DNA from: a virus
Length of the DNA: 21,775 nucleotides
Direction: 5' to 3' (one strand)
IMG/VR virus record: IMGVR_UViG_3300032245_000575
Coordinates: 1 to 21,775 of that record
Shown piece by piece: positions 11,506 through 14,577 of the stretch (positions within the stretch are counted from its first letter, which is position 1; each line of letters begins with the position of its first letter). The position numbers and the translations under genes are program-made. The notes below the pieces were generated by a model that did no database searches, was not told where the DNA came from, and saw only the letters and a list, made by a program, of their open reading frames with translations.

Positions 11506-13365
11506 TTAGACGAATGTTTTGTTTTGTTCTGCAAGCATCTCGTCAATGTTGACGACAACTCTTCGGCCCATTTCAGCTCTTGACAGGAATGGATTCTTCA
11601 TATGGTGGGTTGCGTACTGACCATAGTTGAGCATCTCTCGTGCTCTGATTTCACAGAACCACAAGGCCATTACTAAGTCTGTCTTACCCTTAGTGGTTGG
11701 AGTCCAGGTAATCAACTGCTCGATTAGAGCCTTGATCATTTCAGATTGGTCACTAGGTAGATGTATTAAGTTATCTCGGTGGTGCTTACCGTCTGACTGC
11801 TTAGTCCCGAATAATGTAGACATAGAAGCAACACCGAAACCTGCGTCCCACTTATTACCACCTGTGTGGTGTTCACGAAGAACAACGCCACGACTTGCAA
11901 GGTGCTGACGAATACCTTCGTCCTGAGTAAGAAATGCCTGGAAAGCGTTCTTCTCAATAATCCATTCAGACGGGCTATAGAGCTGCGTCCAGTTAATAAT
12001 GATGTCGCGGATCTGCTGGGGGCTAGGTCTAGTAATCTTGATTGTGTCCAAGATATAGCGCTTGCTAGTATTGCGATCAATAGCGTAAGCGACTGCAGCT
12101 GTATCTCCCACGATTGCTGGGTCCATACCGCAGATAATGCTAAAGCCTGATAGATCTCTAGGATGGCCTGGGTAGCCAGGTTCTAGTCGGCCTGCTTTAC
12201 GCATACCGTCAATAGAACCCTTGACACATACTGGGTCGAATGCTGCGTTCTCAGAAACATCTTGCTGCTGGTAGACCAGCGCCCAAGTGGATGAGTCCAT
12301 CGCTTGGCGTTCGTTGTAAAGGTTACGGCCAGACCAGCGCGGATAGAGACCGTTCTCGTCTTTATCGCTATCTAGCTGTCCATCAAAGGGCATATCTGAC
12401 TTTGGCCACAGGGTGACCCACTTATCAGGGTCTTCATCTGCTTCCAGAAGTGCTGGCATAGCCAGATATGTCCAAGGTACTAAACCGCCTGGGTAGCGAT
12501 CTTCGGAGCGAAGCTCACGGTATAGATCAACGGAAGCCACACGCGTTCCAATAATAATCAATTTGCCAGTAGGGTTCAAACGAGAACGCACATCTTGGGT
12601 CAGCCAGCGGATCTGCTTCTCAAACTCGTTGGCGTTCTTTAAAGTGACAGCATCGTCTACAATGATCATATCGGCACGCTTACCGTAGATCTGGCCGCCG
12701 ATACCGACGGCTTCAATGTTCGGGTCTTTTTCAGAAGACTCACGAAGCTCATCACCAAAGGTGACACGGGTTGCTGCCCAAGTTGCCGTCTTAGAGTTAA
12801 AACCAACGCCAGCGGCGTAAGCCTGCTGGAGGTCCTCATAGTTCGGATGGGTCAGACGCTGCTTAATAGCGTAAAGGAAGTCTGCCGCAAGCTGCTGTGT
12901 CTGGGATACGATCAGGACACGGAAGTTTGGGTTCTTGGCTACCATCATCGTCACATACTCCACCGTAATGGACATTGACTTGGCGTGGTTTGGCGGGATG
13001 TTGATTAGGATGCGGTTATTGGCCAGACCCTTTTCAAACTTCATATTGGGATGAAGCCAGCTTGGTTCCCTACCCTCAATCACATCTACTAGGTTCTGCT
13101 GATGTGGAAAGACCTTGTGCTTCATATAGCGTTCGCAGAACTCGGCATAGGTCACATCGTGGGCATCGCCAGATGCAAATGACTTGTCCTTCAGACCTAG
13201 CCTTGTACGATCTACTTTGTCAGCAAAGATCTTGTCTGTGCGACGGTAGTACTCGTAAGTCTTCAGGCTTTTACCAGCTGAAGCGCAAGCGGCCTCAACC
13301 GTCATACCTTCTGCTACTGCGCCGAGAATAATTCTCTTGGCTATATCTGCTGAGTTCTCAGCCAC
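11506..13365 (-). CDS. terL: Terminase large subunit with N-terminal helix-turn-helix
   Basis: The ATP-driven packaging motor and nuclease, 619 aa. The ATPase shows a variant Walker A, PPNHAKS (124-130), Walker B MIIVDD (233-238), and a coupling motif IIIGTR (270-275). The RNase H-like nuclease shows acidic residues in the expected order: D415 in CGMDPAIVGD, E471 in WIIEKNAF and D563 in KTDLVMALW. Residues 10-55 (AVAEGMTVEAACASAGKSLKTYEYY) read as an added helix-turn-helix like that of small terminases. The start is GTG at 13365 with AGGAG about 7 bases upstream. It is the first gene of the leftward late operon, after a long structured leader. Confidence 0.93.
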   Translation of the reverse strand: MAENSADIAKRIILGAVAEGMTVEAACASAGKSLKTYEYYRRTDKIFADKVDRTRLGLKDKSFASGDAHDVTYAEFCERYMKHKVFPHQQNLVDVIEGREPSWLHPNMKFEKGLANNRILINIPPNHAKSMSITVEYVTMMVAKNPNFRVLIVSQTQQLAADFLYAIKQRLTHPNYEDLQQAYAAGVGFNSKTATWAATRVTFGDELRESSEKDPNIEAVGIGGQIYGKRADMIIVDDAVTLKNANEFEKQIRWLTQDVRSRLNPTGKLIIIGTRVASVDLYRELRSEDRYPGGLVPWTYLAMPALLEADEDPDKWVTLWPKSDMPFDGQLDSDKDENGLYPRWSGRNLYNERQAMDSSTWALVYQQQDVSENAAFDPVCVKGSIDGMRKAGRLEPGYPGHPRDLSGFSIICGMDPAIVGDTAAVAYAIDRNTSKRYILDTIKITRPSPQQIRDIIINWTQLYSPSEWIIEKNAFQAFLTQDEGIRQHLASRGVVLREHHTGGNKWDAGFGVASMSTLFGTKQSDGKHHRDNLIHLPSDQSEMIKALIEQLITWTPTTKGKTDLVMALWFCEIRAREMLNYGQYATHHMKNPFLSRAEMGRRVVVNIDEMLAEQNKTFV

Positions 13366-13383
13366 TGGTTCTCCTAAAATTAA

Positions 13384-13401
13384 ATGGCGCGGATGGCGCG
13401 G
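13384..13401. repeat. Tandem 9-bp repeat ATGGCGCGG x2
   Basis: ATGGCGCGG occurs twice without spacing, 13384-13392 and 13393-13401, just upstream of the terminase ribosome binding site in the leftward leader. Two GC-rich repeats so close to terL might be a protein binding or packaging site, but this is only positional inference. Confidence 0.6.
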
Positions 13402-13439
13402 AATAGTTCCTTATACTAGGTTGGAGAGTTTCCTAATAC

Positions 13440-13659
13440 TGGAAAAGGTGTTTTCCACAACGAAGCTTTGCTTCGTCTACTGGGATTAAATGATCTACTG
13501 GGAGTAGATAGACCTCTCCCTACTAAAAGTACCGAAGGTACTGTTCGGGCTTAGCGCCCGAAGGAGCCACAGCGAACTGAGGGGTAAGTCTGTACTCGGC
13601 CTAGGGGCCTCGTTAGAGGCCAACCATTCGGGTCGCAAAGCTAGTATTCCCCGCTTTGC
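13440..13659. repeat. Array of seven short perfect hairpins
   Basis: Seven separate perfect stems lie in 220 bases: 13440-13457 (7 bp, loop GGTG), 13460-13476 (7 bp, loop TTT), 13493-13509 (7 bp, loop GGG), 13528-13542 (6 bp, loop GAA), 13544-13562 (7 bp, loop TTAGC), 13606-13621 (6 bp, loop GTTA) and 13635-13659 (7 bp, loop 11). A weaker stem may form at 13577-13599. Stems differ in sequence, so these are not copies of one repeat. They would form the leader of the late mRNA if transcription starts near 13660, or could extrude as single-strand hairpins in DNA. Confidence 0.75.
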
Positions 13660-13665
13660 TCCCCT

Positions 13666-13694
13666 ACTATATATAAGCCGCTAAAAAAAGACCA
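13666..13694 (-). promoter_or_regulatory. Candidate leftward late promoter
   Basis: On the minus strand a -10-like TATAGT (13671-13666, five of six consensus bases) lies 17 bases from TGGTCT (13694-13689), a poor -35 with three of six matches. The site is within TATATATAA, easily melted. It points toward terL, about 300 bases away, and a start near 13659 would place the hairpin array at the 5' end of the transcript. An alternative phage-specific or activator-dependent promoter is equally possible. Confidence 0.25.
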
Positions 13695-13850
13695 TATTGC
13701 GTTTTTGACTCTGTGAATTGGAACACATTTGTATTACAGGGTAAAAGTGCAGGTCAAGCCATATACAGCTTCCTGCCGATCACGGCGTTTGACTTTAGCA
13801 AATATTTTTTTCTGGGGAGTATAGCGGGATGTGCATCAAAAGTTAACAAT

Positions 13851-13950
13851 GGGGGGTCGGCCTGCTGGCCAGCCAGAGGGCCAGAGGAGGGCGGGCAGGC
13901 ATTGGACGGCGTTGGTTGGGGGGCAGGCAGGGCAAGGCGGGGGCTATTCG
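13851..13950. other. G-rich strand-asymmetric block
   Basis: By direct count this 100-base stretch holds about 53 G and 21 C on the plus strand, far from the balance of the flanking DNA. It contains runs GGGGGG at 13851-13856, GGGGGG at 13918-13923 and GGGGG at 13939-13943, plus the palindrome GCTGGCCAGC at 13864-13873. Strict four-tract G3 quadruplex spacing is not met, but two-tier or bulged forms are possible. The block lies between the hairpins and the repeats, so an origin-associated role is conceivable. Confidence 0.5.
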
Positions 13951-13970
13951 GCTAAAGGTTGGCGGAGACA

Positions 13971-14003
13971 GCACCCTCGGCACCCTTCGGCACCCTCTCA
14001 CCC
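13971..14003. repeat. GCACCCT short tandem repeats
   Basis: GCACCCTCG (13971), GCACCCTTCG (13980) and GCACCCTCT (13990) follow one another with a 9-10 bp period, and CACCCT recurs once more from 13999. They adjoin the CGACAGCTG and 15-bp repeats. Likely a protein binding cluster; no known consensus recognised. Confidence 0.6.
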
Positions 14004-14012
14004 TAGGACAAC

Positions 14013-14030
14013 CGACAGCTGCGACAGCTG
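14013..14030. repeat. CGACAGCTG tandem pair
   Basis: CGACAGCTG is present twice back-to-back (14013-14021, 14022-14030) and followed by CGACC. The core CGACAGCT occurs again at 14111-14118, beyond the iterons. The core CAGCTG is palindromic and also forms the middle of the 14218-14229 palindrome, which suggests one protein may bind all these sites. Confidence 0.55.
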
Positions 14031-14034
14031 CGAC

Positions 14035-14099
14035 CTAAGTTACTCAACAGTAAGTTACCGTCAAGTAGGTTACCCATTGGTAAGTTACCCAACGGTAAC
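14035..14099. repeat. Four 15-bp iterons, GTAAGTTACCC-N4, plus a partial fifth
   Basis: Units start exactly every 15 bases at 14035, 14050, 14065 and 14080; a fifth begins at 14095 with only GTAAC. The conserved part is GTAAGTTACCC; the last four bases vary. Variants are CTAAGTTACTC in unit 1, a final G in unit 2 and GTAGGTTACCC in unit 3. Each unit contains GTAA-G-TTAC, a small dyad, so each may bind one dimer. Regular spacing with variable linkers indicates protein binding sites: replication initiator iterons or a multi-site operator. Confidence 0.8.
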
Positions 14100-14208
14100 A
14101 TAGCTGACCCCGACAGCTCTTGAATTGTCGACATATCGACATCAAACCCTGACAGAATTCTCAGTTAAATCTCAGGATATTGTTATCAAACCGTAATGAA
14201 AATGTGCT

Positions 14209-14229
14209 TGCTATACCCCACAGCTGTGG
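14209..14229 (+). promoter_or_regulatory. Extended -10 promoter with overlapping palindrome (operator)
   Basis: TGC followed by TATACC (14209-14217) resembles an extended -10 element; no good -35 is found at 17 bases. The perfect 12-bp palindrome CCACAGCTGTGG occupies 14218-14229, covering the expected transcription start. The first rightward gene begins 45 bases later with AGAGGAG ahead of its ATG. A repressor bound at the palindrome would block this promoter. Both parts are inferred from sequence. Confidence 0.4.
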
Positions 14230-14274
14230 TATCGTGCTCCTTGTAAGTCAAACAACTACAAAGAGGAGCTAAAA

Positions 14275-14577
14275 ATGCACAATGCACAAGAACAATTCGT
14301 CAATGACTATACCACAGTAGTGGACAATGACCGCAACGGCTACGAATTTATGAAAGGGCTAGTAGAGTCAAAGAAAACCCTAGAAGCTCTAGCGGGTACA
14401 ATTCAACACGAATTCGAGTCGTATATTGAAGCTGTGGCAAGCCGTGAAGAACTAGCGGGAAGAAACACGGGAGCGTTGATGATCCGTGAAATGCTATTAG
14501 GTTGGGGCGATGATTCGTTCCGTGCGATTGCACGACACTATATAGATATGGTGGAAGAGTTGGACACGATCAACTAG
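14275..14577 (+). CDS. First gene of the rightward operon, 100 aa, unknown
   Basis: The ATG at 14275 has AGAGGAG seven bases upstream, a strong ribosome site, and lies just after the palindrome promoter. The product is soluble, acidic and mainly helical: an N-terminal segment with FVNDYTTVVDNDRNGYEFM, then a helix with KKTLEALAGTIQHEFESYIEAV, and a C-terminal part GALMIREMLLGWGDDSFRAIARHYIDMVEE. It has no recognised catalytic motif. As the promoter-proximal gene it may be expressed early. I know of similar small acidic proteins in actinophages, without known function. Confidence 0.8.
   Translation: MHNAQEQFVNDYTTVVDNDRNGYEFMKGLVESKKTLEALAGTIQHEFESYIEAVASREELAGRNTGALMIREMLLGWGDDSFRAIARHYIDMVEELDTIN

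Follow-up and report, generated by a model that had tools for sequence, protein, structure and literature searches.

A tandem array of predicted FasR-type operators between the early and late genes of a freshwater phage, with a possible link to host lipid state

LexA control of the Bacillus phage GIL01 is an example of a phage placed under a host regulator. In mycobacteria, FasR (Rv3208), a TetR-family protein released by acyl-CoA, activates fas-acpS; it binds several inverted repeats, and adjacent dimers sit consecutively on one DNA (PMC7382501). In Corynebacterium glutamicum, FasR is a repressor of fatty-acid genes (PMC6460773). The FasR co-crystal DNA, as given in the available text of PMC7382501, partially matches one unit of the phage array described here, with a step that we read as 13, not 15, bp; neither the 15-bp step nor the exact TTACYN4RGTAA motif was found in the FasR operator description of that same portion. 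The mycobacterial system resembles the present one in that FasR homologues are encoded beside matching bacterial arrays, and differs from it in that the operators studied here lie in a phage and that binding to them is predicted.

We analyzed a viral record of 21,775 bases, hereafter the window, that belongs to a tailed phage of freshwater origin. Its genes for capsid, portal and terminase are read leftward from 13365 and its early genes rightward from 14275, and the array lies inside the gap that separates these two divergent groups (13366-14274). The leftward operon begins with the gene of the terminase large subunit (TerL; 11506..13365, minus strand; PHROG 38, E 7.5e-64), and the first rightward gene (14275..14577, plus strand) encodes 100 aa with no family match. 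At 14035-14103 the letters of the window read CTAAGTTACTCAACA GTAAGTTACCGTCAA GTAGGTTACCCATTG GTAAGTTACCCAACG GTAACATAG: four units at an exact 15-bp step and a partial fifth, as the original prediction had described. The unit consensus proposed there, GTAAGTTACC, is exact in its second and fourth units but not in the first (CTAAGTTACTC) or the third (GTAGGTTACCC). Judged by its letters, the array makes better sense as a series of four 14-bp palindromes, TTAC[C/T]-N4-[A/G]GTAA, separated by one base, than as GTAAGTTAC dyads, since the run starts with TTAC and ends with GTAA and whole TTACY-N4-RGTAA sites therefore fit its borders better; the GTAAGTTAC dyad is probably the junction of neighbouring sites. 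As a bare word, the 10-mer was not in excess in the window (allowing two mismatches, 22 matches versus 16.6 in shuffles, 13 of 100 shuffles reaching 22), and the improbable feature is its tandem order, not its frequency.

The putative operator units, to which no strand is assigned, are unit 1 (TTACTCAACAGTAA, 14040..14053), unit 2 (TTACCGTCAAGTAG, 14055..14068), unit 3 (TTACCCATTGGTAA, 14070..14083) and unit 4 (TTACCCAACGGTAA, 14085..14098), followed on the early-gene side by the array end GTAACATAG (14095..14103, plus strand). Units 1, 3 and 4 are exact TTAC[CT]N4[AG]GTAA sites and the sole ones in the entire record, in which the reversed control had no match, and 2000 dinucleotide shuffles of the intergenic region gave a mean of 0.0075 such sites with a maximum of 1. 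Unit 2 is a variant whose last base is G (GTAG), a form also known from FasR-linked arrays. The half-site distance of about 10 bp would suit a TetR dimer, on what we take to be the geometry of such proteins. Other short repeats were seen in the gap (13971-13996, 14013-14034 and 14218-14229), namely GCACCCTTCG, a tandem CGACAGCTG and the palindrome CCACAGCTGTGG.

Using the DNA pattern alone, we found the relaxed two-unit form (YTACYNNNNRGTARSYTACYNNNNRGTAR) in 15 of 396 Actinomycetota genomes and the strict form in 5; the reversed two-unit control was found in none of the 396. A FasR homologue, that is, an acyl-CoA-sensing TetR regulator, adjoins 12 of the 15 arrays. These homologues are 40-100% identical to the protein of locus L280, and their projected starts lie 21-81 bp from the array or, in L277, overlap it. 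The arrays of L320 and L321 are upstream of acyl-CoA dehydrogenases, and that of L281, a single actinobacterial case among the 15, is upstream of an ATPase_2/DUF234 gene; FasR or acyl-CoA genes adjoin 14 of the 15 in all. The L280 protein is FasR-like (NF053731, E 3.4e-48; PDB 6o6p, E 1.4e-36) and scores below the NCBIfam NF053731 FasR cut-off (164 bits versus 330); we call it a FasR homologue, not mycobacterial FasR. Conversely, when the site was sought in 30 fetched FasR-like loci, between positions -200 and +70 relative to the start, an exact site was present in 11 of the 20 loci at 38.5% identity or above and in none of the 10 below, with none in the remaining 95.6 kb of these loci (shuffles, 0.003). 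A weight matrix built from 66 phage units gave the same picture (11/20 closer loci, 0/10 remoter loci, none elsewhere), although it is not fully independent because a relaxed version of the site pattern had served to choose its 66 units. In the small Actinomycetota genomes, the array was found in 0 of 40 and no FasR match was obtained at 1e-12 in 35 of the 40, the other 5 having one; at 1e-25, FasR was matched in 44 of 129 sampled Actinomycetota.

Phage and FasR-linked bacterial arrays also have variants in common, with CTAC/GTAG half-sites as well as the 15-bp step. A GTARYAT end toward the regulated gene recurs in both, and most fasR-side flanks of the bacterial arrays resemble the GTAACATAG end of the window (GTAATATA, GTAATAATA, GTAGCAT); L278, L318 and L322, among the 12 FasR-linked arrays, depart from it. 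In L277, L279 and L280, two operator units span promoter-like sequence (e.g., TTGACA-16-TAATAT in L279), and autorepression at these putative FasR operators is likely. That the site standing beside FasR genes in Actinomycetota is the one found in tandem in the phage switch is firm, and its identity as a FasR-type operator is well supported by these comparisons; the host, the binding by FasR and whether promoters are raised or lowered by it are what we infer.

Among related phages, TerL identified at least 80 loci at 84-92% identity, and 57 of the matches listed (56 and the window) have at least 900 bases 5' of TerL. Absence from close relatives had been named in advance as evidence against the motif: among the matches listed, 48 of these 57 loci carry no exact site within 1,100 bases upstream of TerL and 9 do, which suggests that these phages can do without the array. 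Where relatives have the array, its position is that of the window, with a patchy occurrence: 17 exact sites lie upstream of TerL versus 4 in 753 kb elsewhere (reversed control, 0 and 4), and at the same location L009 and L012 bear arrays of six and seven units. The unit step is 15 bp in 35 of 44 phage steps. Viral-contig scans by pattern alone also yielded phages with TerL 44-50% and 25-28% identical. Of the viral loci fetched, 110 have an exact site and 46 of these a TerL match, every cluster being upstream of TerL in 44 of the 46, which is not an unbiased rate as the loci were partly selected by TerL; the exceptions are L160 and, in L200, one cluster of the two. Set aside by eye were five loci resembling coding repeats (L091, L093, L134, L136 and L137) and L160, in which a T7-like promoter was seen. 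Four relatives without the array (L024, L041, L071 and L076) have different 15-bp tandem repeats, e.g., CTAACCGGTGCAGCT, at this position. Judged by TerL, the closest isolates that bear a name are phages of Streptomyces; Manuel, of the Beephvirinae, has the divergent TerL/early layout and a TerL 44.6% identical but no exact TTATCCACA DnaA box and, unlike the window phage, no array. Repeated binding of one protein beside a divergent switch, as originally proposed, is supported by an array that lies between TerL and the early genes, recurs there and elsewhere appears to be the operator of a bacterial regulator.

To look for a phage-encoded binder, protein clusters were compared in 27 phage records, 13 with the array, 6 with a single site (a group that includes L197, which has two sites) and 8 without. 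No phage gene family tracked the array, the best cluster being present in 3 of 13 records with it and 0 of 8 without. The sigma-like protein, put forward as a binder in the original prediction, was equally frequent throughout (11/13 with the array, 5/6 single-site, 8/8 without), and the zinc proteins suggested alongside it did not covary with the array either, so both candidates were rejected. The array-bearing phage records searched, which include fragments and so limit these negatives, gave no HxlR (0 of 49), no ATPase_2 (0 of 22) and no TetR_N (0 of 27). The N-terminus of TerL (13200-13340) resembles, by eye, the HTH of a terminase small subunit; as a candidate binder this segment was rejected, TerL being 84-92% identical in relatives that mostly have no array.

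Two probable promoters flank the array. The early one, TTGCTA-16-TATCGT (14208..14235, plus strand), lies about 105 bp to its right and was recognized by by-eye alignment with TTGACC-16-TATAGT of L009; it is weak by consensus and was missed by the promoter scan, and the palindrome CCACAGCTGTGG sits within its spacer. The late one, TTAACT-17-TATACT toward TerL (13818..13846, minus strand), lies about 190 bp to the left and includes the conserved TATACTCCCC element. On its -10 side, 13814-13823 reads GGGGAGTATA, and the 9-mer GGGAGTATA of this side occurs in 24 of 49 non-redundant loci. Further left, a block of several hairpin-like repeats (13540-13690), kept in L052, may correspond to a leader RNA for the late genes; it had no match in Rfam. 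No good -35 was found within the phage array, and its operators do not overlap a promoter, unlike those of L277, L279 and L280, which suggests that the mode of action may differ; with promoters at these distances, action would be from afar.

We consider it rather probable that the array is a set of tandem FasR-type operators to which a regulator of the host binds, and through which the lipid state of the host would act on the early/late switch. The most likely binder, attaching to the units as successive dimers, would be encoded by the host rather than the phage: an acyl-CoA sensor of the TetR family, from the FasR group. Placed beside divergent early and late promoters, the array would make phage transcription responsive to host lipid state; for example, a rise in long-chain acyl-CoA would lower FasR binding. 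Host FasR on the array would probably act at a distance on the early promoter, the late promoter or both, and activation, looped repression and titration are alike compatible with the layout. The nearness of Streptomyces phages by TerL, and LexA boxes in relatives, which we take to be of the actinobacterial type, were counted in favour of this reading. The arrangement would be like that of GIL01 in having the operator of a host repressor in the phage control region, and unlike it in that the signal would be lipid state, received at tandem TetR-type sites.

Another use of FasR-type operators would be as a decoy, multiplying phage DNA titrating FasR off host promoters and freeing the fatty-acid genes while phage promoters are unaffected. 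Arrays of up to 7 units would suit a decoy, as would their varying distance from the putative early promoter, estimated by eye at about 30 to 113 bp, and the position of the same operators in bacteria, where they would control fasR and acyl-CoA dehydrogenase genes. For this purpose any non-coding gap would do, but the array stands beside promoters in the control region across several TerL groups, and we regard a pure decoy as unlikely.

We hold it a little less likely still that a protein of another family, of host or phage origin (ATPase_2 with a winged helix, HxlR or another TetR), binds the palindrome. A search of all prokaryotes for repeated GTAASTTACC yielded 37 loci (L095-L131), and by tblastn an ATPase_2-like gene stands beside the TTACCN4GGTAA array in 28 of them, mostly in Bacteroidota and mostly with the array some 50 bp ahead of the gene; one genome with arrays of this type had as many as 13 overlapping two-unit matches. 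Five Nocardia arrays (L097, L111, L113, L115 and L121) lie upstream of a large Fe-S reductase-like gene, these genomes having GTAAGTTACC-N5-GTAACTTACC in common, and one Clostridiales array (L103) adjoins an HxlR gene. The same motif and step beside ATPase_2 genes mean that the motif alone is not diagnostic of FasR. The Bacteroidota arrays have the palindrome and 15-bp step of the phage array, but differ from it in the adjoining gene and, mostly, in phylum; they represent a distinct user of this repeat pattern. Among Actinomycetota, by contrast, 12 of 15 arrays are FasR-linked and one (L281) is ATPase_2-linked, and the phage records searched contained none of the three families. HxlR, considered on account of the Clostridiales locus, was rejected because of its absence from the 49 phage records and because FasR explains the actinobacterial cases.

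The original prediction also allowed for origin iterons, here bound by an initiator with DnaA boxes adjacent. Exact TTATCCACA DnaA boxes are concentrated 200-fold upstream of TerL (50 in 62.7 kb versus 3 in 753 kb elsewhere), immediately to the left of the place that the array takes in relatives, and are present in 7 of the 8 array loci other than the window; in relatives such as L010, L012 and L058 they are often in 11-12-bp tandem, mostly 400-700 bp upstream of TerL. A DnaA-dependent origin in this gap of relatives is possible from these boxes. Against iterons, among the matches listed 23 of 57 loci have the boxes and 7 of these 23 the array, and the array is not a general feature of relatives sharing replication genes, being present in the 9 loci mentioned; furthermore, the window contains no exact box, GC skew is mixed, the array is tracked by no phage gene and its non-phage copies sit at promoters. 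Given the patchy occurrence, neither replication nor packaging is likely to depend on the array, and we judge origin iterons improbable. A packaging or terminase recognition site at a genome end is very improbable, for although clusters lie upstream of TerL in those 44 of 46 loci and the corresponding gap of Manuel contains a terminal repeat of 276 bp, that phage lacks the site and, among the matches listed, most relatives with TerL 84-92% identical have no array. Three long contigs (L007, L069 and L080) end 320-375 bp upstream of TerL, which may mark phage genome ends at the array or assembly breaks at a conserved block there.

Other sites for host regulators lie in the same gap of relatives, which makes the reading of the array as a host-regulator target more plausible. 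LexA boxes number 9 upstream of TerL versus 1 elsewhere (6 of 57 loci among the matches listed), and LexA-box-like GAACRNNYGTTC sites were seen in the control gap of L009, L036, L045, L054 and L067, in which SOS control is possible on this evidence. The palindrome GTTGAANNTTCAAC occurs in the gap of 6 of 49 loci (L009, L012, L045, L067, L074 and L075) and nowhere in the rest of the loci. Tentatively, phages of uncultured freshwater actinobacteria may collect in one island operators for FasR as a gauge of lipid state, LexA of DNA damage and DnaA of replication, together with those for the GTTGAANNTTCAAC-binder, with an early/late switch that reads several host states without phage-coded sensors and modules freely swapped among close relatives.

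A literature search found no published link of membrane or carbon state to infection via a host lipid sensor. If FasR control is true, the phage wires a lipid sensor of its host into its own switch, tying membrane or carbon state to infection. The comparison would then supply a sequence definition for a FasR-type operator across Actinomycetota and a testable handle on gene control in common, uncultured freshwater phages. It would also offer a clue to their hosts, as bacteria infected by phages with the array would be expected to have a FasR that recognizes the TTACY-N4-RGTAA site.
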